This document shows positions 36,010 through 58,950 of a stretch of DNA of 64,000 nucleotides, piece after piece. Made by a program: the position numbers and the translations under genes. Source of the DNA: Bolinopsis microptera. Taxonomy: Eukaryota; Ctenophora; Tentaculata; Lobata; Bolinopsidae. The notes under the pieces are model-generated. The model was not told where the DNA came from and did not search any database. It saw only the letters and a list, made by a program, of their open reading frames with translations. Position 1 is the stretch's first letter; each line of letters starts with the position of its first letter. The stretch covers positions 7,728,460 through 7,792,459 of the forward strand of contig NC_087083.1 of NCBI RefSeq assembly GCF_026151205.1, in the 5' to 3' direction.

Positions 36010-36668
36010 TTGGCTGGGGAATCATGTTTTGTGTCCGTTCGGTAACCTATATTTTTAAAACGGACAAAACGTAGGACGGACAAAAACAGACAAAACATTT
36101 AGATGTCCTCCTCCTCCTCCCTAGTCTTCATCCTCCTTCTCATCAGTCCTCCTCCTTCTCAATCCTCTTCAGTCCTCTTCCTGACTCCTCGTCCTCCTTC
36201 TTCTCAGTCCTCCTCACCCTCTTCCTCAGTCCCCCCTCCTCAGTCCTACTCCCAGTCCTCCTCCTCCTCCTTCTCCTTCTCCTCCTCCTCCTTTTCATTT
36301 CTCCTCCCTAGTCTTCCTCCTCCTTCTCCTCCCTAGTCTTCCTCCTCCTTCTCATCAGTCCTTCTCCTCCTCCTGAGTCCTTCTCCTCCTGAGTCCTCTT
36401 CAGTCCTCTTCCTCCTCCTTCTCCTCAGTCCTCCTCACCCTCCTCCTCAGTCCCCTCCTCCTCAGTCCTACTCTCAGTCCTCCTCCTTCTCCTTCTCCTC
36501 CTCCTCCTCCTCATTTCTCCTCCTTCTCCTTCCCATCAGTCCTCCTCAGTTCTCCTCATAGTCGTCTTCCTCCTCCTCATCCTCCTCCACCTCCTGAATC
36601 ATCCTCCTGAGTCCTCCTCCTCATCCTCCTCCTCAGTCATCCTCCTCTTACTCCTCAGTCCTCCCCAG
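36010..36668. repeat. TCC minisatellite, left portion
   Basis: Lead-in ggggaatcatgttttgtgtc then cgttcggtaacctat (about 36017-36055) closely matches 5580-5625 in the cytohesin intron, followed by tcctcctcctcc/cagtcctcc units. The array is split at 36669-36670 by the foldback element and resumes at 40220. The shared lead-in shows that array plus flank moved or duplicated as a unit. Confidence 0.85.
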
Positions 36669-36670
36669 TA

Positions 36671-39600: not shown

Positions 39601-40217
39601 TGAGCTGTTCACTCCCCTGTAGTTCTCCCACCCTGTAGTTCTGAGCTGTTCTCTCCCCAATAGCTCTTCCTCCTGTAGTTCCCCCCTGTAGTTCTCCCCC
39701 TGTAGTTCTCCCTCCCCCTGTAGTTATAGTTCTGAGCTGTTCCCCCTGTAGTTCTGAGCTGTCCTCCCATGTAGTTAACCCCCTGTTATAGTTCTCTTCT
39801 TTTTATTTAAGACATATAAAGAATAATCTCAGGTCAAAATTTTAGGAGTTAAATTAGAGGTGCACATTCAAATTTTAGGGCGCGGTTGCCATGGAAACGC
39901 ACAAAAATGTGTTTTTTGCAATTTTTGACGAAAGTAAGCACTTAAGGCTATATGTTTATTAATAAGTCTCATATAAATGTGCTGATTCCGCATCTTTTAA
40001 GCCTAATTTTAGCTTTGTAGGTGCAATGGGTCCTGAGATATCGATTTTTTTCAGATTTCTGAGGTTCGCGAGCGCGGTTGTCATGGAAACGGCTTGGGGC
40101 ACACCTAAATTTCCGAATTTTTCAAAAAAAAATTTTTTGGTTACTATTTACGTCTATGGGGATGTACAAAAAACTTTCCAAGATGATCGGACGAAAAAGT
40201 GAAAATTCAGGTCAGTC
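36671..40217. mobile_element. 3.55-kb foldback element with TA target duplication, inserted in the TCC array
   Basis: Ends GACTGACCTGAATTTTCACT are perfect inverted repeats. The near-identical arms run inwards for about 440 bases of unique sequence (36671-37110 and 39780-40217) and on into the internal minisatellite to about 37250/39650. Flanking TA lies at 36669-36670 and 40218-40219. Removing the element leaves cagTActcc, a normal variant of the array (as at 6530). No transposase ORF. Confidence 0.9.
37110..39780. repeat. 40-bp minisatellite (GAACTACAGG..AGAACAGCTC), with an inverted block
   Basis: About 2.3 kb of units agaacagctcagaactacag gagggagaactacaggggag (period 40 in the regular part, 38150-38450), plus variants with G-runs of up to 18. 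The orientation flips at about 39425 and the last 350 bases are the reverse complement, continuing the element's terminal arm. Because 40 is not divisible by 3, all three frames stay open in places, giving long but meaningless ORFs. Confidence 0.92.
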
Positions 40218-40219
40218 TA

Positions 40220-42366
40220 CTCCCCAGTCCTTCTCCTCATAATCGTCCTCATCCTCAGTCCTCCTCCTCATCCTCCTCCACCTCCTGAGTCCTCCTCTGA
40301 GTTCTCCTCCTCATCCTCCTCCTCATAGTCGTCCTCCTCTTGAGTCCTCCTCCTCATCCTAGCCTCCTCCACCTCCTGAGTCCTCCTTCTCCTCTTCATC
40401 AGTCCTCATCCTCTGTCCTCCTCATAATCGTCCTCGTCCTTGTCCTCATCCTCGTCCTTAGTCCTCGTCCTCCTCCTCAGTCCTCCCCCCAGTCCCCTCC
40501 TCATTCTCCTCCTCCTCCTCCTCTCCTCATCCTCCTCCTTCTCCTCTTTCTTCTCCTCCTAATCAGTCCTTCTCCTCAGTCGTCATCTTCTCCTCTCGTC
40601 CTCCTCAGCCTTCCTCCTCAGTCCTCCTCAGTCCTCCTCCTAATCATCCTCCTCCTCCTCCTCCTCAGTCTCCTCCTCCTCATCCTCCTCCTCAGTCCTC
40701 CTCAGTCCTCAGTCCTCCTCTACTCCTAAGTCCTACTCCTTCTCCTCCTCGTCCTCGTCCTCGTCCTTAGTCCTCCTCCTCCTCTTCCTCCTCCTGAGTC
40801 CTCTCCTCCTCCTCCTCCTCAGATCCTCCTCCTCCTCTTCAGTCCTCCTCATCCTCTCCACCTCCTGAGTCCTCCTCCTGAGTCATCCCTCTTCCTCCTC
40901 CTCTTCAATCTCCTCCTTATCTCCTCCTCATCAGTCCTCCTCAGTCCTCTTCTCCTCTCTCCTCATTCTCATCCTTATCCTCCTCCTCCTCAGTCCTCCT
41001 CCTCCTTCTCCTTCTAATCAGTCCTCTTCCTTAGCCCTCGTTATCATCCTCCGAGTCCTCGTTTTTAGTCCTCGTCCTCATCCTCATCCTCCTCAGTCTT
41101 CCTCCTCCTCCTTCTCCTCCTCATCAGTCCTCCTCCTCAGTCCTACTCCTCATCCTCCTCCTCGTCAGTCCTCCTCCTCCTCCTCCTCCTCCTTTTCGTC
41201 CTCAGTCCTCCTCCTCCTTCTCCTCCTCCTCCTCAGTCCTCCTCCTTTTCCTCCTACTCCTAAGTCCTCCTCCTCCTCAGTCCTCCCCCAGTCCTCCTCC
41301 TCATCAGTCCTCCCCCAGTCCTTCTTCTCCTCCTCCTCATCCTCAGTCCTCCTCCTCATCATCCTCCTCAGTCCTCCCCAGTCCTCCTCTTCCTCAGTCC
41401 TCCCCCAGTCCTCCTTCTCCTTCTCCTCATCCTCAGTCCTCCTCCTCAGTCCTCGTCCTTCTCCTTCTTATCAGTCCTCCTCCTCAGTCTTCCTCCTTGT
41501 CCTCGCTCTCGTCCTCCTCCTCAGTCCTCCTCGTCCTTAGTCCTCCTCCTCCTCCCCGTCCTCAGTCCTCCTCCTTCTCCTCCTTCTCGTCTTCCTCCTC
41601 CGCCTCCTCCTCACCAATCCTACTCCTCTTCCTCAGTCCTCCCTCTCCTCTTCAGTCCTCCTCCTCCTCAGTCCTCCTCCTCCTCAGTCCTCCTCGGTCC
41701 TTCTCCTCCTCCTCAGTCCTCCCCAGTCCTCCTCTTTCTCCTCAGTCTTCCTCCTTCTCCCCATCCTCCTCAGTTCTCCTCCTCATCCTCCTTCTCCTCT
41801 TCCATCTCCTCCTAATCAGTCCTCCTCCTCAGTCGTCCTCCTTCTCGTCCTTAGTCCTCGTCCTCATCCTCATCGTCCTTAGTCCTCGTCCTCATCGTCC
41901 TTAGTCCTCGTCCTCATCCTCCTCGTCGTCGTCGTCGTCCTCTTCAGTCTTCCTCCCCAGTCCTTTTCCTCCTCCTCAGTCCTCCCCCAGTCCTCCTTCT
42001 CCTCCTCCTCATCCTCAGTCCTCCTCCTCCTTCTCCTTCTTATCAGTCCTCGGTCCTCGGTCCTCGTCCTCGCTCTCGTCCTCGTCCTCAGTCCTCCTCG
42101 TCCTTAGCCCTCGCGTCCTCTTAGTCCCCCTCCCCGTCCTCAGTCCTTCTCTTCCTCATCCTCCTCACCAATCCTGCTCCTCTTCCTCAGTCCTCCCTCT
42201 CCTCTTCAGTCCTTCTCCTCCTCAGTCCTCCTCCTCCTCCTCAGTCCCCTCGGTGCTTCTCCTCCTCGTCAGTCCTCCCCAGTCCTCCTCTTCCTCAGTC
42301 TTCCTCCTTCTCCTCCTCCTCCTCCTCAGTCCTCCTCTTCTTCAGTCCTCTTCCTCCTCCTCATCA
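40220..42366. repeat. TCC minisatellite, right portion
   Basis: Continuation of the pyrimidine-rich array with added gtcctcgtcctc units. Ends abruptly at about 42366 where ordinary AT-rich sequence (cagtttacacaatttattg) resumes. No genes. Confidence 0.9.
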
Positions 42367-42690
42367 GTTTACACAATTTATTGTTACTAAAATGTTTTTA
42401 AACGCATTTGAGTCTGTAACATATTGACATGTTACTGTTACTGACTCAAAATGTGCTTGAGAATTTTTTTGTTTAACAGAGTTTTACTCTCCAGTACTAT
42501 GTAAAAGTTGTTACATGATAAATAAAGATTTTGATAAATAAAGTGATTTTCATCCCTTTTAAAATTAATGTTATTAAAAATTGTGTAGACTATTCTTTGT
42601 AGTCGGATCCCAACCGTTCTAAAAGGCTATCTCGTTAGCTTTTCGTGTTAAAAGCGATTTCTCGACGGTTATCACCTCTCTAGATGATTC

Positions 42691-42799
42691 GTAACGGGTG
42701 ATACTCGTAAAATATCTGTTCCATATATTGGACCGTCGACGACGAGGATTGTCGACGAGTCCAACTCGGCGCGCGTCCTGGTAGGTTGTAAACCTACAA
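42691..42799 (+). mobile_element. Family C short element with 8-bp target duplication
   Basis: A 109-bp insertion (gtaacgggtgatactcgtaa ... gttgtaaacctacaa) flanked by GATGATTC at 42683-42690 and 42800-42807. The right arm of the foldback (about 54864-54871) has the uninterrupted site with one GATGATTC (as its complement). Homologous to 14176-14272. Contains GTCGAC-centred inverted repeats and a terminal hairpin; no obvious terminal inverted repeats. Confidence 0.88.
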
Positions 42800-43255
42800 G
42801 ATGATTCTTAAAACATTTGGACTTCATGGCAAGGTTGAAATACATGCAATGAGGGCGTTTTCGGCCACACCCTTTTTCAGGGTTTCGCGGTCACTCAAAT
42901 TATTGTATTTCAGCCCAGGAAGGTCTTAAAGACTATTCCGATACACCAAAATGTGCCTTAAATAGCCACATTTATCTACAACTTATGAAGCAACATATAC
43001 CTTAAAATGCTTTGTTTTGGAAATATGGCCGAAAAACGGTTTTTGGCTTGACGCAGTTCATAATTTCCGTGATTTTTGGCATTTCCGCCTAGGAAGGTCG
43101 TAGAGACTATTCTGATACACCAAAATGTGCCTAATAGCCATATTTATATACAACTTATGAAGCAACATATACCCTAAAAGGCTTATTTTCGGAAATGTGG
43201 CTGAAAAACGGATTTTCATCCCACTTATATCACTGGCAACGCACCATAAACCAGG

Positions 43256-43352
43256 TTGTAGCGCGATGCACTACTGGGTCGCGCGCGCGCATCCAATAAT
43301 GCTTCTCGCAACCACAGATCGGCGAGATGCGAAGGATTGACATCGTGAATCA
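43256..43352 (+). mobile_element. Family B short element with 10-bp target duplication, inside LINE copy 1
   Basis: A 97-bp insertion (TTGTAGCGCGATGCACTACT ... GACATCGTGAATCA) flanked by ATAAACCAGG at 43246-43255 and 43353-43362. Removing it and one duplicate restores the LINE reading frame through THHKPGCVPSL. A 10-bp duplication and small size suit a SINE-like retroposon, but I find no clear Pol III A/B boxes. Confidence 0.87.
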
Positions 43353-43362
43353 ATAAACCAGG

Positions 43363-45913
43363 CTGTGTCCCATCGCTTACTGAAAATATTCTGACAAACT
43401 CCACTGACAATATTGTGTCAGCTGGACTACTGGATACCAGGGTTTCGCATCACTCTCCAATTTTCTGTATTCTCGAATGTAGCATGCCTGAAGAACCAGA
43501 ACTTGACCCTTGTAAACCAAAATACGACTACTGTGAATCTAATATGACCAAGTTCTTAGAAGATATTCAAACAAATTTTTGTGGGCAGGTGTGCTACAAC
43601 GTAGAAAACTTTGAAATTTTTGCAAATAAGATAAAACTTTTGATCGAAGAAAACTTTTTAATTGAATCTGAATCGTTCAAAAAGTCAAAAAGAAATATGA
43701 TTGCAAACCCTTGGATCACACCAGGGATCATTGCATCAGTGAAAAAGAAAGAATATCTTTACAAGCAGTGGAAGAGTACAATTAAGGAACCCAACCCTCT
43801 TGGAGACTCTGATCTATACTTAACCTATAGTAAATTCCGTCGACAGTTAAAATACATTATCAGATCTGCCAAGAAATTGTACTATTGCAGAAAATTCTCA
43901 AAAGTCTCAGGTAATATGAAGCAAACATGGGCACTGATCAATGAACTGAGGGGAAAAACAAAAACTGGAATAAAGGCCTCGTTCAAAATAGATGGTAGTT
44001 TAGTAAAAGACAAGCGTGTCATATCGAATGGCTTTAACATGTTCTTCTCTTCCATTGCAGGTAAACTTAACGCGAAGCTCTGCTCCTCCAAACCAATAAG
44101 TCGTGACACAGCTTGCCAGAGGCCCCTTAATTATAAGAACTACTTTAACAAAAGAGTTACCAACAGTATGTTCTTAAACCCCTGTGATTCTGAGGAAATC
44201 GAAAAAATTGTTAAAACCTTCCAGGGTGACAAGGCTAGTGACATATCAATAGCTGTTCTTAAGAAATGTTGCACTACAATCTCTAAACACCTAGCTGGTT
44301 TCCTAAACTCATTCATGAAGCTGGGTCTATTTCCAAATATTCTCAAAATAGGTAAGGTCACCCCCGTATTTAAGAAAGGAGACCCATAGCTGTTTGATAA
44401 CTACAGGCCTATATCCATTCTACCTATCTTTGGTAAGATATTTGAAAAAGTAATTTACTGCCGACTATATAGCTTCTTTACTTCACATATGGTCATATAC
44501 GATAAACAGTTTGGATTCAGATCCAACCACTCAACGGCACATGCCATCAATTACTCCATTGACCACATTCTTAAAAACCTAGAAAGTAAGAATCATGTAA
44601 TTGGCATATTCATTGACTTAAGCAAAGCGTTTGACACAATCGACCACAGAAAATTACTTGTCAAACTTGAACACTATGGCATAAGAGGGCCCTGTCTTGA
44701 CCTAATTGAAAGCTATTTGTGTAACCGACAGCAGTATGTTGATTTCCAAAATACACACTCTGATCACTGCAAAATTGAATATGGGGTACCACAGGGATCA
44801 GTTCTAGGCCCTCTCCTCTTCTTACTCTACATTAATGACATTACCAACTCTAGCAAACTTGGACACTTCATACTGTTTGCAGATGACACAAACATATTTG
44901 TTGCTGGAAAAACTGAACAAGAAGCCTATTTGAATGCTAATAAAGTACTTGAATCTGTAAATGACTATATGGAATCTAACTTGCTGCACATTAACCAAAG
45001 CAAATCGGTCTACATGTTATTCAGACCTGGCCGGTACTCGTCCTGTGCACGTGCTCGTGAATATGGCTCTGAGAACTCACTCACGTTATCAGGCAACACG
45101 CTTACACGGGTAGATAAAGTGAGATTCCTTGGTGTTATCATAGACCATGAACTATCCTGGGAACCCCAACTAGATAACATAAAAAGTAAACTAACTACAA
45201 GTATAGCTATAATTAAACGTATTATGAAGTTTATTCCAGAAACAGAGTACCATAAGCTGTATGACTCCTTATTCAAGTCTCATATGAGCTACTGTATCAG
45301 TAGCTGGGGTGGTGTCACACCTTATAGACTATCTAAACTGTTCTCCATCCAAAAAAGATGTGTATGCCTTCTATTTGGAAGCAAACCAAGCTTTGACCGG
45401 GCAGAGTATTATGAAACATGTGCACGTGCAAGACCATACAGTGAACACATCGCAAAAAGGAGCTTTGCTTTGGAAAACACTAAGCCAATATTCAATACCG
45501 AGAAAATCATGTCAATCCACAACCTGTACACCCAACATATATCCACTGAACTGTTTAAAATCTTGAAACTGCATCAACCTATCTCTCTGACAAGTTTATT
45601 CCAAACAAGTTCCAGAGCATGTAGCCAAACTATGCGGGTCCCCCGACACAAACTTGAAATTTCTAAACACAATTTTGTCTTCAAAGGTACGACTATATGG
45701 ATCAGTTTGGTTGATAAAATATTCGACAAATGCACTCCTAATGAAAACAATGTCATGGTCCCTGGCTCTAGTAAATTTTCCGACCTTTCCTCCCCCATCT
45801 CAATTATCAAGAGCCGTATCAAAAAGCTCTTACTTGAAACCCAGCAATTGACAACACCTGGGCGTGAAATTGAGTGGCTCCCCCTAAATAGCTGGGGCAT
45901 TGAACCAGCTTAG
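43363..45913 (+). pseudogene. LINE copy 1 ORF2: endonuclease end, linker and complete reverse transcriptase, one in-frame TAG
   Basis: One frame is open from the endonuclease end (NSTDNIVSAGLLDTRV, SHHSPIFCIL) to the stop at 45911-45913 except for a single TAG at 44387-44389. RT motifs are all present: FGFRSNHSTAHAI, GIFIDLSKAFDTIDH (motif A), YGVPQGSVLGPLLFLLYIND (motif B), LFADDTNIF (motif C) and VRFLGVIIDHELSW (thumb). RT copies LINE RNA into DNA at a nicked target. Two lesions are visible: the truncated endonuclease has SHH where SDH is usual, and the TAG lies just before DNYRPISILP. Otherwise intact, so this is a fairly young insertion. Confidence 0.9.
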
Positions 45914-46871
45914 TCAATCAGCATCCCATCCCTTGCATACAACTAATTACAAAAGCGCTAATTATACCTGTTTCAAAAGCATCCTGTCTGGAAGTTCCCT
46001 GACTGCCGTGTGAATCTTTGGATCTATTTTTGGATCTATTTTTATATTGATATGATTTTTATATACCTATATATTCCTCGCATAATTTCCATGTCCGCCT
46101 GAACAAACCTGGCACCATCAAATCTTACTCTAGAAACCCCAGAACTCATCAAGCCTAGTCTGAATTCAAAACTAGTTGACCAGCTACGTACAGTTTCCTG
46201 GACAGCTGGAACCTTTTGGGCCATGCACAAGCCAATAGCATGTATGGTCCTGCAGTGGGGTCTCCTTGTCCTTGGATCTGTGTTTTGATCCGTCTTTTCT
46301 TAAAATTTTCCATTTGTGTCACTTAGAATCACCTTTTAAAATGATAATCGACACCACTGGTCCTAGTTAAATTTACCCATGGCACGACTACTCGAACGTA
46401 ACAGTTAAATAGGTGTGACATACAAATAAATAAAATACTTTGTTTTACTAAAATACTTTGTTTTACTTTTGTCGAGCAAACAATGACAATATTTACAAAT
46501 GGGCTATTGGACTGTTAACTAGAAAGGTCTTAAAGACTCATGAGCAACACAGCATTTGTCACAAGATGTAAGATGACTCACTTTGTGTCCAGAAACACCT
46601 ACAAAAATTGGAGAATGATCTACTTTATTGGGCATCTCCAGGCCAGGCCAGGCCAGCAGCATATTTGTGTCTTACGAAATGGCAATTTTTCAAAATTACG
46701 GTTTCTTTAGTAAAGGTCAATGGGTCAGTTACAAACAGCAAATTGTTCGCAATTGCCGACTCATGCACATCATATACTCAAAAACACTCACATTAGGAGT
46801 CATTAGTAAATAACTAATACATGATTTGTGAAAACTCCAACAATTTTTCCTTGGTACCAATTTAAATAAAA

Positions 46872-47124
46872 CGCCGTAGGATACATAAGAAAGCGCCTTC
46901 GCTTTGAAATTCTCAGAACAACAGTGATTTCTCTCCGTGGAGACAGAGGTGCGAGAAAAAACATTGTTGATATAAACAGTCTAGATCTTAACTTGGAGCC
47001 ACAAGGCCAAGGGTAATTTTTAATTGTTAAGGGAATTTTTTGAATTCTTAAAGGGTTGATTTTATATAGGGTCATTGCTATATTATTATGTGTTTATTGT
47101 TTGAATAATTTTATTTGAAAAAAA
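46872..47124 (+). mobile_element. Poly(A)-tailed retrocopy with 13-bp target duplication
   Basis: A 253-bp insertion ending in eight or more A residues, flanked by AATTTAAATAAAA (46859-46871 and 47125-47137); the foldback right arm has a single copy of this site. Its first part reads YIRKRLRFEILRTTVISLRG, DRGARKNIVDINSLDLNLEP then QGQG and a stop, followed by an AT-rich 3' UTR. This looks like the 3' end of a retrotransposon or cellular mRNA copied by a poly(A)-using LINE machinery; I could not assign the source. Confidence 0.8.
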
Positions 47125-47200
47125 AATTTAAATAAAATGTGTGACGTGCCAGACCAAAATTCAACTTCAAACTTTTTATTTATTCATGCCATGAAACCAT

Positions 47201-47350
47201 AATGAGTTATGTGCCCATCCTTGAAGAACCCGGCGAATGTCCTTGCTGTACGGCAGTGTTAAACAAGGAATTGAAACCGAGGGGTTCCGTTCAGGCCCTT
47301 TACACTTTGTTTCTGTCTAGTTCTAATGTACCGTCACAATAGTGACTTTA
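47201..47350. other. 150-bp segment in the left arm absent from the right arm
   Basis: The left arm reads gaaaccat / atatatgtacc with about 150 bases between; the right arm joins them directly (as its complement). It is either an insertion here or a deletion in the right arm; no convincing duplication decides. Confidence 0.45.
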
Positions 47351-47639
47351 ATATATGTACCAAGAATACCAGACCTAAAATAAATCGGCACTGGATCCGG
47401 ATCAGATTGTTGCTTGACCGCTGAAACCATGAATAGAACAAATATATGTGAGAACTGTATCTGCTGCAGCAAACCTATTCGTGCTGGACACCCATTTATA
47501 AATTGCAATAAGTGTGATATATAGACTCAATAGGTACAATCTCAAAAACTCTTGAGAACTGTCAATCATATTCTACTAAAAACTTCAACAACCTCATAAA
47601 GCAGATTCCTCAAACAACATCAAAGCGCATATTCTCACA

Positions 47640-48197
47640 CTACTTTCGAAATATTGATGGAAATGGTACTAACTTTGACAAATTGGCCTTAGAATTAGCC
47701 TGCATAGACCACAAATTTTCTGTGATAGGTTTAGCAGAAACAAACATTGATCCCTGTAATAGTCAGCTGTACCAAATTAAAGACTATACTTCATGTTACC
47801 AAAAACGCTTCGTTTCTAATAAGACACAACAGGTAAAAAGTAAAGGAAGTGGAGTTTCTCTCTACATTCACAACTCCTTTAACTTCAGTGTGATTGAAAA
47901 GTTATCTGTTTGTACAGAGCAATTTGAGTCCCTATTCGTAACAATAAGTAATGCTCCAGAACCAGTAACAGTTGGAGTTGTATACCGCTCACCAAGCAAT
48001 CCACTTGCTAACTTCAATGCACAGTATAAAGAAGTTCTTACTGCACTGAAAGGACATAAAGCATACATATTAAGGGACTTCAATGTTAACATAACCAATT
48101 TATCAGGCCCAGATGAAGATATATTCGAAGAAGTTATTTATAGTCACGGGTTCACGCCCACAATATCCATTCCCACACACCAAATGCCCCACTATCA
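47640..48197 (+). pseudogene. LINE copy 2 endonuclease domain (3' part deleted)
   Basis: LACIDHKFSVIGLAETNIDP, then GSGVSLYIHNSFNFSV and VTVGVVYRSPSNPL match APE-type endonucleases (LAETN, GGV..Y, G..YRSP). The expected GDFN motif reads LRDFNVNI, a glycine-to-arginine change. The C-terminal SDH motif is missing: at about 48195 the reading jumps to the linker in another frame, so roughly 100 or more residues have been deleted. Confidence 0.82.
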
Positions 48198-49642
48198 ACT
48201 CTGTGGAGAAAAAAGCCAGACTTTATTATGAATGGAAAAAAACAAAAACATTGTTAATTCCAGATGGGGATCTGGAAAGACATAATGTTTACAAGGACTA
48301 CTCAAAATATCTTAAAATTGCCATAAAAACTGCCAAAAACCAGGTATTATGCTGAAAAGTTTGAGAAAAATAGCCATAACTCCAAAAAAACCTGGAAAAT
48401 AATTAACGAGCTTCGTGGCAAAAAGAAGAATCAGCTAAAAGATGACTTCATTATAGATGGAACTAGAGTAATTTGTAGGCGGACAATTGCAAACAAATTC
48501 AATAGTTACTTTACATCTTTAGCTAGTAATTTAAATGAGAAGGTTTTGTCCGAGAACCAACTGTCTATCCAACCAATGCAATCATTTGTTGAGTTTATGT
48601 CGAAATCAGTCAACAGTTCAATACATCTAGAAGAAACTCATCCTGAGGAGATTCTTGAAATAATTCAAGAATTCGTTAACGGAAAAGCCAGTGATATACC
48701 AATAGCAGTTATCAAGAAACCGGCTCATCTCTTATCCAACATATTAGCAAATTTGTATAATACATGTATTCAAAAAGGCACGTTCCCATCCATATTCAAA
48801 ATAGGCAAAGTAACTCCTATCCATAAAAAAGATGATAAATAAAATATTGAAAATTATAGACCTGTGTCAATATTGCCAATCTTTGGTAAAATATTTGAAA
48901 AAATAATATACAAACGGCTTTATACCTTTTTCACTGCTAATGACATTCTCAGTAATGAACAATTTGGTTTTCGAAAAGGCCACTCAACCTCACATGCACT
49001 CCACAAATCAGTTCATTCAATCACAACATCAACATCCAGTGGTAATCATGTTCTAGGAATCTTTATTGACCTAAGCAAAGCTTTTGATACTCTTGACCAT
49101 GGCATTCTCCTGAGGAAACTGGAAAACTATGGGGTTAGAGGTCTAGCTCTAGGACTTCTAAAAAGCTATTTATCCGATAGATCACAGTATGTTTCATTTC
49201 TCAACACTACATCAGAGACTATGAATGTAAAATATGGAGTTCCCCAAGGTTCCATACTAGGCCCTCTACTTTTCTTATTATATATGAACGACATAATAAA
49301 CTGTTACAAAGGCGATGAATGCAAATTTGTGCTCTATGCTGATGACACAAATATATTTATCACTGGACCGTCCAAAGAAGCAACATACTTGAAGGCCAAT
49401 AAAGTTCTTGATTTCGTATGCAAATTCATGAGAAGTAATCTCTTACATATAAATATGTCTAAATGCTGCTACATACATTTTCTACCTGCATACGAATCTG
49501 ATGAAACCTGCGCCAGGGTTAGGCCGTATGCCAATGAACATGACAAATCACAAGGAATATTTATAAATGGACACAAAATTGTCAAGGTTAGCAACACCAA
49601 ATTTCTTGGTGTAGTAATTGATGAAAAACTTAGCTGGGGCCC
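48198..49642 (+). pseudogene. LINE copy 2 linker and reverse transcriptase, 5' part, with in-frame TAA
   Basis: The linker (EKKARLYYEWKKTKTLLIPD) shifts frame near 48342, then runs in one frame to 49642 apart from TAA at 48840-48842. RT motifs: FGFRKGHSTSHAL, GIFIDLSKAFDTLDH, YGVPQGSILGPLLFLLYMND, LYADDTNIF, TKFLGVVIDEKLSW. The TAA sits at exactly the codon where copy 1 has TAG (KK.D.*...NYRP). The frame is then cut by the element at 49643. Confidence 0.85.
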
Positions 49643-50750
49643 CACAGTGGGCTACCATGCTAGCATAGGCCTAAAATCGACTTTCTTAAATTTCTTTGAA
49701 AATAAGCTTACCTTATTGTAAAACGCTAGCCCGATTTCATGCAAAATACCGTAATTAAAAACTTTGCAAGATGCCAAAATGGCGTCGCGTGAAAAAATAG
49801 CATTTTTCACTGTCAAGAAATTTTGCCTTTTTTAGCCAAAAATTGCCTAATATTTATTATTTTGGGCTAAAATGCCTGATCAAGGCAGTTTTTAATAATT
49901 GAAATACAGTATAGTACTTCAGAATACTCAGACATCTAAAAAAAACTGTGTGACATTAACATTTTCACCTGATTTTTGACCGCGCCTTTTTTATGGCGTG
50001 TATTTTAGGCAATTTTTGGGGTATTTAACGACAGAAATCGTTGTTGGTTTGCAATAGTTCGGTATAATGCATGGTATCATCAGAAAGCTTAGACAATTCC
50101 CTGTCAGATGCAATAAGAATCACTTTGGGAACTTTTGGGCAACTCTGTTTACAAAATTAAGAAACTCAAAAATTGGGTAAAATTTGCTGCATTTTTAGAT
50201 AATTTATGAGCTCAATTTTGCTATTAAATTGAAATATTTTAGTTATTCTCCATGTTTGTGGCATTTTTTGCATCCTAGACCAGATGCATATGGATGAAAA
50301 ATCAAAATATCACAATTATTATAGTTAAAATTGATAAAAATCCAAAATATCGTGATTTTAAACGAAATTTTTGAAAATAACAGGAACAATTTTGGTGTTT
50401 CAGAAAATTTTGGTCATATAAATGGGCACAACTTTTGTTCTGATCAATATTTTTTCATAATTCAAAAAGATTTGAGTTCCTAAGATAGCTGTCCTTCGTT
50501 TAAAGTTCATAAAAGAGCTTTAAAATTGATTAAACCTCTAAAAAACAACTTTTCCTGGGATCAGCCTCCTATTTTTGGACTTCAAGATTGCTTAAAATCG
50601 GCCCAAAAATTTTTTCTGAGACATTTTCGGCCCAGTTAATGATTGGAATCGTATTTTTGTACCCAAATTACCTTAGAAACAAAGTTAGGGGCATGTGTGA
50701 TGGTCTAAAATACCCTATGCTAGCATGACCCCCACTCACAGCCCACTGTG
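49643..50750. mobile_element. 1,108-bp non-autonomous element with CACAGTG termini and 5-bp GGCCC duplication (Transib-like)
   Basis: Ends CACAGTGGGCT (49643-49653) and AGCCCACTGTG (50740-50750) are exact inverted repeats, with a further inverted motif CATGCTAGCATAGG some bases inside each end. Host LINE sequence is duplicated for five bases, GGCCC, at 49638-49642 and 50751-50755; removing the element restores SWGPHIEYL in frame. CACWRTG termini with 5-bp GC-rich duplications characterise Transib elements, whose transposase is related to RAG1. An 8-bp hAT reading (TIR CAGTGGGCT) would need a mismatch and an indel. The interior is AT-rich with no ORF. Confidence 0.78.
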
Positions 50751-51640
50751 GGCCCACATATAGAATATCTAAGAAAAAAAATTAGATCCACTACAGGAGC
50801 ACTTAACAGGATTAAACATTCAGTTCCAGGGGAACACTACCAAAAAATATACTCTGCATTATTGGAATCACATCTTGCTTACGGAATAAGTGTTTGGGGC
50901 TCAGCTCTCAAAGACCAACCAAACGATAAGCTGTTCATAACTCAGAAACGTTGTATAAGAATCCTTTTTGGAGACCTAAATGCATACCTCGACAAACATG
51001 CCACTTGTGCACGAGCCAGACCTTATACAAATAAATAAATAAATAAATAAATTAAGTCAATTTTTACAGCACAGCAATATATATCTAAATATCAGATCCT
51101 CTGTAATCATAATGTATAAAAAAGGAGCTTTTCTCTGTGCTATACAAAACAGAGGTTAGGAGCTGCTTTTTTCGAAAAAGAGCACACCAAGCCCATTTTT
51201 AATCGACTAAAATTGCTTACTGTTCAAAACTTGTACAAATACCACTGTATTTCTGAGATATTTCGAATTATGAAATTTCGCACTCCATACTCGTTGTATT
51301 GTACTATAGACTCATCAAAACGTGATACAAGCAATGTCATAATCCTCCCAAGAAAAACCAATACTTTTCTTTATATAGCCTCCAAATTGTGGAATAGCAT
51401 ACATAAACGGATTCTAAATGAGAATGGGGAAATCCTCACTACTTCTGTATCTTTGGTTAAATTACGCTGTAAAAGTATCATCCTGGGATCTCAATCCATC
51501 AACAATAATAACACCTGGACTTACCACAGCTTTCACATCGCCCCTCACTCAATCACAGACCAAACCATTTCATCACTCACTCACCAAATTGCCGACCCAA
51601 TATCTATTGAAGTGGCGAAAATTTTCTAGACAAATGATAT
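50751..51640 (+). pseudogene. LINE copy 2 reverse transcriptase, C-terminal part
   Basis: After the insertion the frame resumes at HIEYLRKKIRSTTGALNRIK, then SALLESHLAYGISVWGSALK and TQKRCIRILFGD, as in copy 1 (SHMSYCISSWGG, QKRCVCLLFG). A short taaa-repeat/foreign stretch breaks it at about 51039; later frames give NLYKYHCISEIFRIMKFRTP and RKTNTFLYIASKLWNSIHKR, the usual C-terminal region. Confidence 0.8.
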
Positions 51641-51818
51641 TTCGATATTATTGCTGCAGCAGATACAAATACCAACATTATTATATTCCCAAACGTTTGA
51701 ACCTTTAAATTAACTAGGAAAGTCAATCCTCAACTTGACTTTTACTGTTTTAAACAGATATGATGATATTAACTTAATTTATTATTATTATTATTTTTTT
51801 TTTACATACTCCTTCTTA

Positions 51819-52056
51819 GTGTGGTGACTTGGGGTCCATAAATATAACAATACAAGCTGATAAACCAAAAAGAACAACTGGGGTAGGTAGGTAGCCCTGG
51901 TGGGTGCGTAAACTTTACGGTCTGCTCTCTCCAAGATCAGCCTGCTTCTCCATTTTACCGTGAAGCCTAATTTCTAGTTTTTATAAAATATAAAATGCAA
52001 GTGCAGGTTTACTAATCTTAATCTACTTAACAACTCAATAGCCCAAGTCACCATAC
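51819..52056. repeat. Possible small MITE near the 3' end of LINE copy 2
   Basis: GTGTGGTGACTTGGG at 51819-51833 pairs with CCCAAGTCACCATAC at 52042-52056 (one mismatch). About 240 bp. No target duplication seen, so it may be chance or part of the LINE 3' UTR. Confidence 0.35.
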
Positions 52057-54939
52057 CCGTAGTATATTCCATGGTAATAGAAGAGCTTTAAAGTTTTTCA
52101 AATTGTTGCTATAATTGATTTAAATAAAAAAATTTGTTGTTTTCTTGACCAGTACCCCACTTTTTAATTATGATTGATTTCGCTGCTTCGACCAATGTTG
52201 GTCTGTAATCCCTGGATTGAGATTTGTTGGCCGCAGTTTAATTTAGCTAATTTCTTATAATACCGCAGTGGTCTGGTTCCCACTTCAGAATGACCCCATA
52301 TTCTTTTTTTCAGTCGCATAGATTTTCCCATCGTTTGATAATGTGTGTCAACTGTCATTCCCTCGTTTTTTAATCAAGTGGTAACTGGCTATTTCTTCTG
52401 TTATTACAGCTGTGAGCTGCCTCGAGATCTTATCTGGGGCATGGGCACAAATACTAGAACATTAGAAGATTAGAACTGTAATTCTAGAACTTCAGATTAA
52501 GGTTACTTGGCAGAATAGCATTAGCAGGGTTCGAGATTTGACTGAGGGCATTCAGGCAACATACCAGGTTCACATCACCAGTTGAAGTGAATCTTAATTT
52601 CGGCATGCAATGCCTTTATGCCTTATAAGTTATAATCTTATAGTAGGATCACGGGGTTTTTATAATAGAAGGTCTCGAGATGCTGATTTAGCTATTTAGG
52701 TTTCACATGTGACATTTTTCCAGCTTTGGGTAAAGTGGATTTTAGAGCGGGGAGGGGGTCTAAATGACCAAAATCTGAACGATCTCTTACTTACGGGACA
52801 CTACGGGACAAGGGACGGATCTCGGGCCTAATAGCTGTTTTTTAATGAGAGGCTGAAGTTTGGACCTAGATGGTCAACGTGAGGATAGCATGAGGATTTA
52901 GGATGCTCTGCCTGCCTTTCGTGGGGTCTTGTAACCCCTAAAGATGGTATATCTTATCTAAATTAACCTTGGTTACATCTCGTGCTGTTTCGAATATATA
53001 ATTAGATTTATAGGTCCAATATCAAGCAAAAAAGTCTGATGTCATGTACTGATGTTATACTTACATGATCTCCGACGCGAGGATCTCCGAAGTCCGATCT
53101 TAAAGTTGGATCTCAGAGCCAAAAAGAGGAACGTAAGCCTTGGTTCCTTTCTTTGAGAGTTAAACAGGAAATTCGGGGTTATCAACTCAAACTCGGATTC
53201 GTAGCACAATTAAAAAACCAAAGAATAAAAATCTTAATGAATTTCCCGACATTCTAAAATTAATATCAGTTCGTATTCATATATATATATAATATAGCCT
53301 GACTGACAATTTTCTCGACTGACTGACAATGTTTCTTCTTTTCCCCATTTAGAATACAAAGATTAGTACATTTTAGCTTATGATTAATATTATATTTTTA
53401 CCTATAGTTTACCTAGATCAATTCAGTGGCCCAAACTCCAGTAGGTTACAAGCTTTAAGTTCAATTCGAGGAACACTTTGATTAAGCATGATCCTTGTCT
53501 AGTTGGAGTTTTCGCATATCATGCAGTAGTTATCTACTAATCACTCCTAAACTGAGCGTTTTAGAGTCGAATCTCGAACCCTGCCATTCGGCCAAGTAAT
53601 CTTAATCTGAAGTTCTAGAATTACAGTTCTAATGTTCTAGTACTAATGTATTAGTGCCCTAGATAAGATCTCGAGGCAGCTGTAATAAAAAAGAGCTAGC
53701 CAGTAACCACTTGATTAAAAAACGAGGGAATGACACACATTATCATACGATGGGAAAATCTATGCGAACCAAACCACTGCGGTATTACTATTATGGTAAA
53801 TGAGCTAAATTAAACTGCAGCCAACAGATCTCAATCCAGGGATTACAGACCAATATTGGTCGAGGCAGTGAAGTCAATTATGATTATAAAGTGGGGTACT
53901 TATACTGGTCAGTGGTCAAGCGTCAATCTGGCCCGGATCCAGTGCCGATTTATTTTAGGTCCGGTATTCATGGAACATATATCATGGTTTCATGGCATGA
54001 ATAAATAAAAAGTTTGAAGTTGAATTTTGGTCTGGCATGTCACACATTTTATTTAAATTGGTACCAAGGAAAAATTGTTGGAGTTTTCACAAATCATGTA
54101 TTAGTTATTTACTAATGACTCCTAATGTGAGCGTTTTTGAGTATATGATGTGCATAAGTCGGCAATTGCGAACAATTTGCTGTTTGCAACTGACCCATTG
54201 ACCTCTTACAAAGAAACCGTAATTTTGAAAAATTGCCATTTCGTAAGACACAAATATGCTGCTGGCCTGGCCCATTAAAAGAGATGCCCAATAAAGTAGA
54301 TCATTCTCCAATTTTTGTAGGTGTTTCTGGACACAAAGTGAGTCATCTTACATCTTGTGACAAATGCTGTGTTGCTCATGAGTCTTTAAGACCTTTCTAG
54401 TTAACAGTCCAATAGCCCATTTGTAAATATTGTCATAGTTTGCTCGACAAAAATCCGTTTTTCAGCCACATTTCCGAAAATAAGCCTTTTAGGGTATATG
54501 TTGCTTCATAAGTTGTATATAAATGTGGCTATTAGGCACATTTTGGTGTATCAGAATAGTCTCTACGACCTTCCTAGGCGGAAATGCCAAAAATCACGGA
54601 AATTATGAACTGCGTCAAGCCAAAAACCGTTTTTCGGCCATATTTCCGAAACAAAGCATTTTAAGGTATATGTTGCTTCATAAGTTGTAGATAAATGTGG
54701 CTATTTAAGGCACATTTTGGTGTATCGGAATAGTCTTTAAGACCTTCCTGGGTTGAAATACAATAATTCGAGTGACCGCGAAACCCTGAAAAAGGGTGTG
54801 GCCGAAAACGCCCTCATTGCATGTATTTCAATCTTGCCATGAACTCCAAATGTTTTAAGAATCATCTAGAGAGGTGATAACCGTCGAGAAATCGCTTTTA
54901 ACACGAAAAGCTAACGAGATTCCGTTTCGTCTCGGACTA

Positions 54940-55429
54940 CAGAGGTCACTTCAGATTCTGACATGAGCTTATTTAGGATATCCAGATCTGGTGGTTCAGG
55001 GTAATGTTTGTGATTGTGGTGAGTGAGATCTGGCTCCTGGTCTGGTTTTTTATAAAGGGATGCAAAGAAGTCATGGAAGCTAGCTAAATCAAATTTGTCA
55101 AGTAAGGGGCTAGTGTCATGTTCTTGTTTAAGCCGTTTAAATTTTTTCCAGTCGAGTATGTGACCTTCTTCTATAGCTTCATTTAACTTCTTAAGAAAAG
55201 CTACTTTCTTACTGTTTACAAAATTGCTATGCTTGTTGCGTTGCTTAAAATATTCTAGTCTGAGGATACTGTTACAGTGCTTACTACCAAGCCGATTTGC
55301 TAGCCTATTAAGGTTCCGCCGCGAGGAGTTGACTTGTGGGTCGAACCATTTTTTACGGGCAGAATTTTTGGGAGACTTTTTCACTTTTAAGGCTATATCA
55401 GCAGTATAACATCGTTTGCAAAAATGCAA
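54940..55429 (-). pseudogene. LINE copy 3, inverted 5' segment: endonuclease-RT linker
   Basis: The minus strand reads VKKSPKNSARKKWFDPQVNS, then NRLGSKHCNSILRLEYFKQR and LMSESEVTSV, a typical linker between endonuclease and RT of CR1/L2-type elements (compare the minus fragment at 58880-58940, MSESEVASAIKNLKKGKS). It ends where the foldback begins. It joins head to head with the + strand part at about 55420. Confidence 0.82.
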
Positions 55430-56325
55430 ACGATGTTATACAAAAATTCAACCAATTCTCCCACGAGTTTGTACGCTGGGTTGACTGTAATGGACTTGCA
55501 CTTAATCTAAAAAAGACCTGCTATATGCTTTTCGGTGTTAGAAATACTGATAATACTCCAAATATTCATATTGCAGACACACAATTAGAACGTAAAAGGG
55601 AAGCACGGTTCCTTGGCGTTATAATGGATGATAAACTAACATGGTCTAAGCATATAGCAGCTGTTAGATCAAAAATGATGCGGTATGTAGGAATTATGTA
55701 TAAAATAAAACGTCACCTATCGATTCAAATAAGGCTACAGATATATCAAAGTTTTGTTCAATCGCATTTAAACTTCTGTTCAATTGTATGGGGGTTTGCA
55801 GCAAAAAATCACATTGAATCACTCTTCTCACGACAAAAACAGGGTATCAGGGCAGTAATGCCAGGTCACATTAATTACTTTTACAAAGACGGTCGACTGC
55901 CAGAACACACAAAACAATTTTTCAATAACAATGGTATACTCACGGTGCACAGTGTTATTGTAAAAAACACACTAATTCTCATGCACCGAATCAAACATTT
56001 CCGCAGCTCAGTCCCTCAACAAATCTGTATGACTATCCCAGAAAATGCACCCACTGCAAACTCAGATCACGTGACTGCAGCATCCTGGTTAGCCGAGTAC
56101 AACACCACACATTTCAGATCTTCGATGTTCTTCAAAGGACCTTTACTCTCAATTTATGCTGTAAATGCAAATGTAAGCACCCTACCCACACTTTTTTCCA
56201 TAAACCTTTTTAAATCGGCTACAAAACGCATGCTCTTGAACCTGCAGAGTGAAAATGACGATGACACGTGGCCCAGTTTCTTATTACATAATATTCCAGG
56301 TCTAAGAAGGTCACAACGTGTCTGA
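55408..56325 (+). pseudogene. LINE copy 3, sense 3' segment: RT thumb and C-terminal region
   Basis: FVRWVDCNGLALNLKKTCYM, then REARFLGVIMDDKLTWSKHI and QSHLNFCSIVWGFA, up to the stop after LRRSQRV. The catalytic core (FADD) is absent. About 570 bases of likely 3' UTR follow (to about 56900, with AATAAA at 56761 and 56865). Together with the inverted segment this is the layout expected from twin priming during target-primed reverse transcription. The joint contains the inverted repeat ACATCGTTTGCA/TGCAAACGATGT. Confidence 0.85.
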
Positions 56326-56929
56326 AAGTTACTGGACACAACGGTCATTATATCAGTTTAGTGAATTAGTTAATTAGTTATTTAGTAAATCAGTTATTAG
56401 TCATATGGTTATTATTAAGTACTATATATTATATGATATTACAAAAATAAACTATGAATATATATTTGCACACAAAAAAACCAGAACAAACTGATCACAG
56501 ACTAGCGGCAACTAATATTAATGGATAAGCCACACATCCTAAATTCCAGGTCCATATTTACACTGCCACATTCCCCACTATCACTATTTTCCTATCAGCA
56601 CAAACCGTAATTAATTGATTTCAACAATCACAAACACTACATATCCAAACTAATGGCATGGCATAGCAATATCTACGATATCCTCAATCAGTCCCTAACA
56701 AACTTAGCGCGAGTCTGAAGGGCTGTTGGAAGCACTAGAGTGCTCCATATTTTGTTTTAGCAATAAACCTTTTTTTTCATTTTCTTTTTTTTATAAATTT
56801 ATTAACTGCGTGCAAATTTGTGTTTCAGATTTGATCTATTTATGATATATATTTATGATTATGTAATAAAGTTATTAATATTATATTCGTAAACATTGGC
56901 TGGCTTACAAACCAGTCCCCAAACAAAAC

Positions 56930-57957
56930 AAACTGTGGAGACATTTTATGACTGCATCGTTCAGTTCGTGATTGCCCTCCAGAGTACTGCTAAATTCATT
57001 TGTCACAATGCTTTCCAGATTGTTGATAATTTCGGGCGAGGTAAGGGCTTTTTTAAATAGTGAATGGGAGGTGTTGCTGTCCCACTTCTAGCCACAAGGA
57101 AAGTTAGAAAAGTCTGGGAGCTGGAAGTTTGCGACAAATGGTTCAAATGTAGTGAGTTTCAAGACTAATGGACAATGATCAGAGTATGATGTAAACTCTT
57201 TTACTTGGAGAGAGTTTACATGATCTCTTGCCCATGAGGTGATTACAAAATAGTCAACCACACTGCTTCCATTGTATTTGTGACAGGTCATTTTTCCAGT
57301 GGTGTCCCCAAGGGTACGACCATTAAGAATTTTGAGTTGGTTATTGATAACCATGTCAAGGAAGTGTTGGCAGTGGGGTTCAGATATTGTAAGGTCAGAA
57401 TTGTTTCTTGGTTCTTCTATGTCGTGCTCGAGTCCAATGTCGTTATAGATGTCATGGATGGCAGGTGCATTACAGGAAAGGATATAGTCTGGGAGTTTTC
57501 CAGTTCTTGCATTTGCATCGCCACACATAATAACTTCTCCCTTTTGACGTAGTCTGATACAGATAGAGTCAAGAGCAGAGAAGGTATTAGCAGTATAATC
57601 TGGATTCTTCTTGACATAGGACGAGTATGCAGGGCTAATATAATAACATACCAAAAATAGGTCAAAATCAAGTTTAAAAAAGTTCTTGTCCAGTTTAACA
57701 ACAATAATGTCATCAGATTCATTACAAAGCACACTAGAGACACCTTTTCTTAGGTCATTTTCAGCAAGAATGCAGACCCCTCCTGAGCGTGAATTTTTGC
57801 GGTTGCTATTAAAAGAGAGGTATCCTTCAATCTTAACTTGCTTCTTTGTTTCTTGAAGACAAAGAATGTTAGCTTGTTTGAGGATTGACAAAAATTCGCT
57901 ATTTTCAAATTTGTTAGACCCGTCTCCTGTGCTGTCCTGGATGTTCCAGGACATCAC
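56930..57957 (-). pseudogene. LINE copy 4 endonuclease domain
   Basis: 289 codons on the minus strand: MSWNIQDSTGDGSNKFENSE (start), ILCLQETKKQVKIEG, SGGVCILAENDL, CGDANARTG, SSVVDYFVITSW and SYSDHCPLVLKL, which are the ordered motifs of an APE-type LINE endonuclease, with the catalytic residues in NIQ, QE, GDAN and SDH retained. A TAG at 57087 (NFPCG*) stops it, yet the same frame continues KWDSNTSHSLFKKALTSPEI to about 56930, where the 3' UTR of copy 3 abuts. The endonuclease nicks target DNA. Confidence 0.85.
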
Positions 57958-58039: not shown

Positions 58040-58670
58040 TCTCATACCAAAGGCACGGTATAGGCCAAGTTTAATATTCAAACAAAGTTTTTTCAAACCA
58101 TACTCTGAGACATGAAGTTGGTCCTCCTTCAACGGGTTAGGAGAGTCTTGGGATGACTCAGCAGCAGAGATGGCACGGGAAAAGTTTCCAGTATTGTTTA
58201 CAGTATATAGGCGGCGGTAAAAGTCACTTAAAACCCTCTTTTAGCTGAGACAAATTGGGTTATTTCTGAGACAAATTGGTTGGTAAGTTCACTGATTAAT
58301 CCAGGGGTTGGGGTGGGTAGGGAGATGACAACCTTTGCACTGGAGCTCGAGAGGAGTTTATCGATGACTGATTTTGCATCCTCAATTGCTTTATGCTGCT
58401 CATTATATCCTCTAACTTTTCAAGTCTCTTGTCCATAGTGTTGAGTTCATTAGACAGGTTAGGGGGGCTGACACTACCTTTTTGATTGGAATTACTGTCA
58501 GAACATAAGACAAGTGTTTGGAGGTATAGCATTATGCATTGGCCAGTATTTGGGTGGAAATCTGGGCTCTTATAGTAGCCTGTAAAATGTTCGTTCACAG
58601 AGAGAATTGAATGGATTGCTCTTGCTGTGGCAGTAAATTTAGTAGGGTCTAGTGTTTTATCGGATAGCAA
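58040..58670 (-). pseudogene. LINE copy 4 ORF1-like region: coiled coil and SGNH-esterase-like domain, frameshifted
   Basis: On the minus strand a 124-codon ORF includes NTMDKRLEKLEDIMSSIKQ (coiled-coil-like). A frameshift near 58410 then gives AIEDAKSVIDKLLSSSSAKV and VISLPTPTP, and further on NNTGNFSRAIS and DQLHVSEYGLKKLCLNIKLG, which fits the final block of an SGNH/GDSL esterase (D-x-L-H-x-S-x-x-G). CR1/L2-type LINEs commonly carry coiled coil plus esterase in ORF1, so this and the endonuclease just downstream belong together. The first residues (58560-58670) may instead belong to the fragment upstream. Confidence 0.6.
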
Positions 58671-58950
58671 ACCGGCTAGGTCAGTAATATTTTTTGGGGT
58701 GGAAGTTAAATTTTTCTCTAACTGAGGAGTAGAGTAAACAGTCAGTTAGAACATGAATTTCGTCCTCAGTGCCATGGATAGTAACCGGAGACCAGTGAGT
58801 GGTTGAAGTTTTTGAGGATGGCTTTGTGACAAAGTGGAGTTAGGCTCTGAAGCATCTCGTTGGATATCAAGTCGTTTGAGCAACTTTTACCTTTTTTGAG
58901 ATTTTTGATGGCAGAGGCCACTTCAGATTCTGACATACTAATAAGTTTAA
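58671..58950 (-). pseudogene. LINE fragments: linker/RT start joined to an RT C-terminal tail
   Basis: Minus strand: MSESEVASAIKNLKKGKSCS, NDLISNEMLQ (58860-58940) is the linker-RT boundary; after a short break TEDEIHVLTDCLLYSSVREK (about 58722-58778) resembles the zinc-knuckle-like C-terminal tail seen in CR1/L2 ORF2. The RT core between them is missing. It is a deleted copy of the same family as copy 3. Confidence 0.6.

Follow-up and report, generated by a model that had tools for sequence, protein, structure and literature searches.

We analysed a 64,000-nucleotide stretch of the Bolinopsis microptera genome (the window; C12:7728460-7792459 of the 264.65-Mb genome, the assembly on which all genome-wide searches were run), which contains no N. 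It carries an interrupted copy of a foldback transposon whose two ends lie in two different host repeats, and this locus probably marks a past DNA rearrangement. An earlier note on this DNA had described an inverted-repeat locus here, and that locus is real: its arms align in pieces at 76-99% identity, and its termini, TAGTC...GACTA, are common to sister copies elsewhere in the genome (L001-L011). These shared termini set the exact borders at 42600-54939, so the earlier borders of 42602-54937 pointed to the right locus with coordinates that needed correction. Left-arm pieces of 66, 418, 410 and 79 bp matched the right arm at 96-99%, the 74-bp piece at 47351-47424 at 89%, and the innermost piece (52151-52543) at 76%, with 73 gap columns in 401. 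The arms also contain direct repeats, two units of about 138 bp with a period of about 172 bp that are 88% alike. The features are collected in Table 1.

Table 1. Features of the foldback locus and its host repeats, in window positions (TSD, target site duplication; TIR, terminal inverted repeat; LINE and SINE, long and short interspersed nuclear element; ORF, open reading frame)
Feature	Position	Strand	Remarks
Left host repeat S	42369-42599	+	Distal portion of a repeat that bears a minisatellite; the A-end interrupts it
Foldback transposon copy	42600-54939	+	A-end (TAGTCGGATCCC...) on the left, B-end (TAGTCCGAGACG..., reversed) on the right
Left (A) arm, outermost piece	42600-42690	+	Includes the first TSD copy of family C
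Family C insertion	42691-42799		TSD GATGATTC at 42683-42690 / 42800-42807
Left arm, second piece	42800-43216	+	412/418 identical to right arm
LINE 1 insertion	43217-46466	+	TSD TTT; reverse transcriptase ORF 44489-45913
Left arm, third piece	46467-46871	+	395/410 versus right arm
SINE-like high-copy repeat	46872-47124	+	13-bp TSD AATTTAAATAAAA; the earlier note's "retrocopy"
Left arm, fourth piece	47125-47424	+	Includes an A-side-only stretch at about 47204-47350, not an insertion
LINE 2 insertion	47425-52145	+	TSD TGA; reverse transcriptase ORF 48864-49721
Transib-like non-autonomous element within LINE 2	49643-50750		TIR CACAGTGGGCT; TSD GGCCC
Left inner arm	52149-52560	+	About 76% identical to right inner arm
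Loop	52561-53559	+	From sister-copy comparison
Right (B) arm, uninterrupted	53560-54939	-	From arm alignment and sister copies
Right host repeat LINE X	54940-55404	-	Cut by the B-end, without its 3' part; resumes at 56932-57450 and rightward

The earlier note had suggested looking for the same foldback family elsewhere in the genome, and the family was found there at about 120 matches per end type. Searches allowing up to three mismatches gave 120 matches to the A-end and 120 to the B-end, with none in reversed-pattern controls, and a looser A-end pattern gave 128 matches against one control match. Uninterrupted sister copies are mostly about 3.97 kb long. Near-perfect arms of 927-946 bp are present in eight of the 11 subfamily-1 copies, and in the remaining three a repeat unit is missing or a template switch interrupts the arms. 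We read the flanking triplets of 100 of the 128 A-end matches and 100 of 115 B-end matches and paired ends lying 100-25,000 bp apart, which left 18 of 100 ends per side unpaired and unjudged. The resulting 82 pairs are not all independent, as they include one duplicated C13 locus whose two copies share flanks. The results showed identical 3-bp flanks in 75 of 82 unique pairs among the matches listed, against a mean of 3.9 and a maximum of 13 after shuffling, and a 4-bp flank match in 0 of 83 pairs, indicating a fixed 3-bp target duplication. The target triplets are AT-rich yet broad, with 28 different ones among 76 matching pairs. With dispersed copies sharing the same ends, long inverted arms and a duplication of fixed length, as in foldback-type families, this family is a foldback DNA transposon with a 3-bp target duplication.

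We compared the family with DNA transposon groups that make short duplications. PIF/Harbinger elements produce a 3-bp target duplication of the TTA/TWA type; the length fits the family here, and its 28 kinds of triplet are AT-rich but broad. CACTA (EnSpm) elements have CACTA/CACTG termini and a 2-3-bp duplication, and membership of that group was rejected on the TAGTC...GACTA termini. No foldback transposase was recognised by eye in ORFs of at least 120 amino acids outside foldback sequence at 15 loci (12 covering all or part of eight large copies, plus L008, L009 and L012), no profile search having been made. The inserts at these loci carry ORFs that by eye are LINE-, copia- and Maverick-like.

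We then examined the flanks of the window copy, which reads TTG on the left (42597-42599) and CAG on the right (54940-54942). Seven pairs had unequal flanks: four rows from two tandem dimers, two with damaged B termini, and the window copy. Among the matches listed, no other paired simple copy combines intact termini with unequal flanks. Point mutation at the level of the arm divergence would give such unequal flanks with a probability of about 7e-4. Repeat S has 39 other scored copies at 95-97% identity, and four of the four copies read run on past the junction, with ..TTTG up to it and TATCTAACTGAGG beyond. Similarly, all four LINE copies read, and all 42 genome pattern matches, carry LINE sequence across the B-end site. 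In the window itself, repeat S and LINE X are both cut at the foldback and do not resume beyond it. Target-primed reverse transcription truncates LINEs at their 5' end, so the missing 3' part of LINE X is not ordinary LINE truncation. The unequal flanks and the two different host repeats, on which the earlier note had not remarked, speak against its reading as a plain foldback insertion.

An inversion should have left a partner breakpoint, and the predicted reciprocal junctions were looked for on the S side and on the LINE side. The S side gave no genome match at up to three mismatches, and none of the 42 pattern matches on the LINE side joins a foldback; within the scope of these searches the inversion was rejected. 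The S-side search would miss junctions with more than three mismatches, such as the weak lead of an A-end at C11:5359151 whose flank, AAATAGTTACAA, agrees with the predicted S junction at nine of 12 bases, counted by eye. Diverged minisatellite arrays (about 70-77% between offset copies) that belong to or resemble repeat S occupy window positions 40212-42368, 5704-8125 and 36105-36669. LINE X is interrupted at 55405-56931 by a stretch with a LINE-like ORF and is adjoined on its right by a second copy of its family with an internal deletion (58525-58936).

The foldback copy has four insertions, all in its left arm. The earlier claim that one arm keeps the empty sites of the other arm's insertions is borne out: the right arm shows the four sites empty, and each of the 11 subfamily-1 sisters retrieved (L001-L011) has a closed junction at every one of them. 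A twelfth copy, L012, which is rearranged and comes from a different subfamily, was not counted. That all inserts lie on one side is true, but as evidence it is weak, with a probability of 0.125 by chance. Together with one TSD copy each, the inserts amount to 8,360 bp, and the remaining 3,980 bp compare with 3,954-3,984 bp in five uninterrupted sisters. The inserts would be ordinary transpositions into older transposon DNA.

The junctions of these inserts agree in large part with those described before. The family C element has the 8-bp TSD reported for it, or 9 bp counting the preceding A, and a relative at 84% identity lies inside L010. For the two LINE copies the junctions hold, and both contain a reverse transcriptase (Pfam RVT_1); the "T-rich TSD" ascribed to LINE 1 amounts to TTT only. 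The TSDs of LINE 1 and LINE 2 are just 3 bp each, which is short for LINEs. The poly(A)-tailed insert does have a 13-bp TSD, but it is a high-copy short repeat and not a processed gene: 808 first-look candidates were found genome-wide, 40 scored copies matched at 94-100%, and two other genomic copies read start at the same point. Its high copy number and shared start point mark it as SINE-like. A 47-amino-acid reading of this insert had no solved-structure match at E values up to 10. The Transib-like element reported inside a LINE with its own TSD was confirmed in LINE 2. It shows the hallmarks of Transib, a GC-rich 5-bp duplication and a terminus like CACAGTG; the search for its transposase covered the ORF lists. 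The family B element of the earlier note may be a 111-bp repeat at 51032-51141 that L027 also contains. An Rfam scan of the window gave no match at gathering thresholds.

The locus had also been called self-dating, with arm divergence as a clock for each insertion, and this claim fails on several grounds. All 11 subfamily-1 copies carry the 148 bp between 47203 and 47351 on their A side. Identity between the inner arms is 74-77% in nine of them; in the other two, the interrupted L008 and the truncated L010, shorter pieces gave 78-86%. Because they are present in these sisters, the 148-bp asymmetry and most of the inner-arm divergence predate the window copy. The outer arms of the window copy differ at 1.52% of sites, against a mean of 1.48% between arms of different copies, and both lie closer to the arms of other copies (0.97% and 1.08%) than to one another. 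This comparison used columns with at least 18 arms and a majority of at least 60%. Moreover, a cut-and-paste element carries existing arm differences along when it moves, so arm divergence has no zero point at the locus. It is also one number per copy, which allows nested inserts to be put in order but not neighbouring ones.

Arm-to-arm copying adds to this, as the caveat about gene conversion in the earlier note had anticipated. Four diagnostic outer-arm columns separate A-type from B-type arms in 12 copies. L001, L002 and L008 are B-type in both arms at all four columns, L009 is A-type in both arms at all four, and the arms of L004 are alike at three of the four; the A/B difference is kept in seven of the 12, including the window copy except at one column. 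We read the likeness of arms at diagnostic sites (5/12 copies) as probable arm-to-arm copying, and since L001, L002 and L008 are mutually close, they may share one copying event. In L003 (C9:132900-138900), at 4006-5628, the right arm is B-type at four inner sites and A-type at a fifth, outer one. Past an A terminus it goes on with left-flank sequence, inverted and about 311 bp long, before returning to the B arm and B terminus, with a matching TTA duplication. This arrangement resembles a template switch from one arm to the other, frozen after overshooting into the flank. In the window copy, moreover, both arms share two variants seen at no other place. Arm divergence is thus a product of the age of the element lineage and of arm-to-arm copying, and dates neither the inserts nor the arrival at this site.

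Other loci of the family were also noted. Tandem foldback dimers at C7:14570820-14577759 and C7:16507130-16526260 are joined by one shared TA (GACTAGTC), and their outer 3-bp duplications match, as if a joined-end form had inserted. L054 (C10:15143900-15153300) contains an exact 3,709-bp direct repeat (100%) of foldback plus flank, which is a recent duplication or an assembly artefact. L052 and L053 (C3:16995900-17000900 and 17816800-17821800) form an inverted segmental duplication 0.82 Mb apart, 97.7% identical over 2.47 kb, that includes a diverged foldback fragment.

To relate the window copy to its sisters, we counted changes private to it. Two variants are present in both of its arms, and searches with the exact 26- and 21-base strings found them at no other place in the genome. 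In all, two private sites are shared by both arms, six are A-only and five B-only; one A-only site (43141) also occurs in two C13 loci, L023 and L046, and so is not private. Within its outermost 250 bp, the right arm has variants that occur, as exact strings, in none of the 17 other subfamily-1 B-ends available. L001 and L004 have almost no private changes, and judged by its private sites the window copy looks older than L001, L002 or L004. Compared with 11 copies, the foldback has 24 private changes in 3,976 columns, and LINE X has two in 1,574 columns compared with eight other LINE copies (p = 0.016), under rules for calling a change private that differed between the two sets. The foldback count dropped columns with fewer than six copies or with letters in under half of the copies and kept columns without a 70% majority in the denominator, where they could not score; the LINE count dropped columns with fewer than four LINE copies or more than one dissent. 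These counts suggest that the join to the LINE may be younger than much of the foldback divergence, in which case arm divergence overstates the age of the present locus.

Taking the flanks, host repeats and private variants together, we consider it likely, at roughly 75%, that the foldback copy bridges two formerly separate sites, by exchange or by aberrant transposition. The join would have been made through the foldback element itself after LINE X had inserted, and the intervening DNA or a reciprocal product would have been lost. Because private variants lie in both arms, one lineage would have given most of the element, either through exchange between siblings or through sisters contributing one end each. 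Homologous exchange between two copies, one in repeat S and one in the LINE, would be the leading mechanism, although we give it slightly less than an even chance, and it would work best if the two copies were closely related and near each other. A doubtful part of that share is ectopic exchange between unrelated copies, yielding a chimeric element. The genome does hold many near-identical copies, the outer right tip is somewhat richer in private variants, though not significantly, and the signature is the same as that at Galileo breakpoints in the available part of PMC2775673; the shared private variants would nevertheless place any crossover close to a tip, within roughly the outer 250 bp of the right arm or the outer 376 bp of the left one, barring later conversion, and no reciprocal product was found from the S or the LINE side. 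Next, as a tentative second, comes aberrant transposition, in which the A-end of one sister copy and the B-end of the other would have inserted together into the nearby LINE, deleting the DNA between flush with the element end, so that the old left flank was kept and the right flank is new. Inspection by eye of the copies read revealed no recognisable transposase, leaving present activity unproven, and no derived duplication or inversion partner was seen; nevertheless, this mechanism would explain the precise termini, the unequal 3-bp flanks, the lack of a reciprocal copy and the same private variants in both arms, and the near absence of private changes in L001 and L004 suggests recent activity.

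Several observations weigh against a bridging copy. No ancestral or alternative allele was seen, and we infer the event itself; the searches gave no reciprocal copy, which fits a deletion but not an inversion; and the private variants tie both arms to one lineage, which a simple exchange between unrelated copies would not predict. The excess of private changes over LINE X becomes borderline (p = 0.04-0.06) with the 20-21 independent sites left after double-counted and non-private ones were removed. Private changes show no chimeric signature between the left arm and the rest (10/1,191 versus 14/2,785, p = 0.26), a result on which an older left half joined to a younger right half was rejected, and the excess at the outer right tip is not significant (3/250 versus 2/700, p = 0.12). 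Among the ends listed, the 18 of 100 per side that remained unpaired may include more copies with unequal flanks. Outside the bridging explanation, intact termini with unequal flanks could also come from transposition without a TSD and with a target deletion, or from a later deletion ending exactly at the last base of the element; this is improbable, as it needs a rare event or a base-exact end when 75 of 82 pairs carry the normal duplication. An assembly misjoin between two foldback copies is less probable still. The 4-kb repeat has sister copies at 96-99%, and the assembly sequence alone was examined, but the left and right arms have private variants in common, so that a misjoin would have to lie near a tip, within some 250 bp of the right end or 376 bp of the left end; the variants of that right-hand stretch are absent from the 17 other subfamily-1 B-ends, and the window has no N. 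The remaining reading, a plain foldback insertion with nested inserts dated one by one through arm divergence, is very unlikely: the empty sites are real and the outer arms do differ by 1.5%, but the flanks are unequal and lie in two host repeats, the inner-arm divergence is ancestral, and arm-to-arm copying and the missing zero point remove the clock.

A copy bridging two sites would be an event of a known kind, in an unclassified foldback family. To our knowledge, mismatched-TSD foldback signatures are best documented in Drosophila, for Galileo. FB is a foldback-type element with long inverted arms, as Tetris and Tm1 reportedly are, the latter titled Mutator-like; judged from descriptions only, all three resemble the present family in long arms with direct repeats and a middle without a recognised transposase. 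Mutator-like elements have target duplications longer than the 3 bp seen here, and that of the P element is 8 bp. A literature search on foldback elements with a 3-bp TSD gave no match. In the available part of PMC2775673, Galileo at the breakpoints of inversion 2z3 in Drosophila buzzatii has target duplications that were exchanged and carries nested insertions, and hybrid element insertion is discussed there as an alternative. A LINE-like piece with a 13-bp TSD is among the inserts described in Galileo (PMC2775673, PMC3573991). As far as these sources extend, long inverted arms, arm lengths that vary with internal direct repeats, unequal flanks and nested insertions are common to Galileo and the family here, which differs in its 3-bp duplication, its TAGTC...GACTA termini, the lack of a recognised transposase and the lack of a partner breakpoint. 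On its TAGTC termini and 3-bp duplication, against 7 bp in Galileo (available part of PMC2775673), the family is not placed in the P superfamily, to which Galileo belongs. In D. mojavensis, Galileo arm length shifts via internal tandem repeats and recruitment of inner sequence, according to the accessible portion of PMC3573991. Hybrid-element or reversed-ends transposition (P element, maize Ac/Ds), as far as it is treated in that part of PMC2775673, has the ends of two copies acting together; those cases provide a mechanism and new events, whereas here there is one old product without parental alleles.

A broader view, which we regard as speculative and rather unlikely, is that the family acts as a rearrangement device, its arms being rewritten from each other by break repair that can overshoot into the flanks (as in L003) and that occasionally fuses the ends of a copy to different sites, the window copy being one product. 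For dating, foldback arms are unsuited to the approach used with long terminal repeats, as part of their divergence is ancestral, copying between the arms can remove it, and insertion does not set it to zero. Foldback copies with mismatched flanks are a readable record of past chromosome rearrangements, and a TSD census can find bridging copies in one pass.

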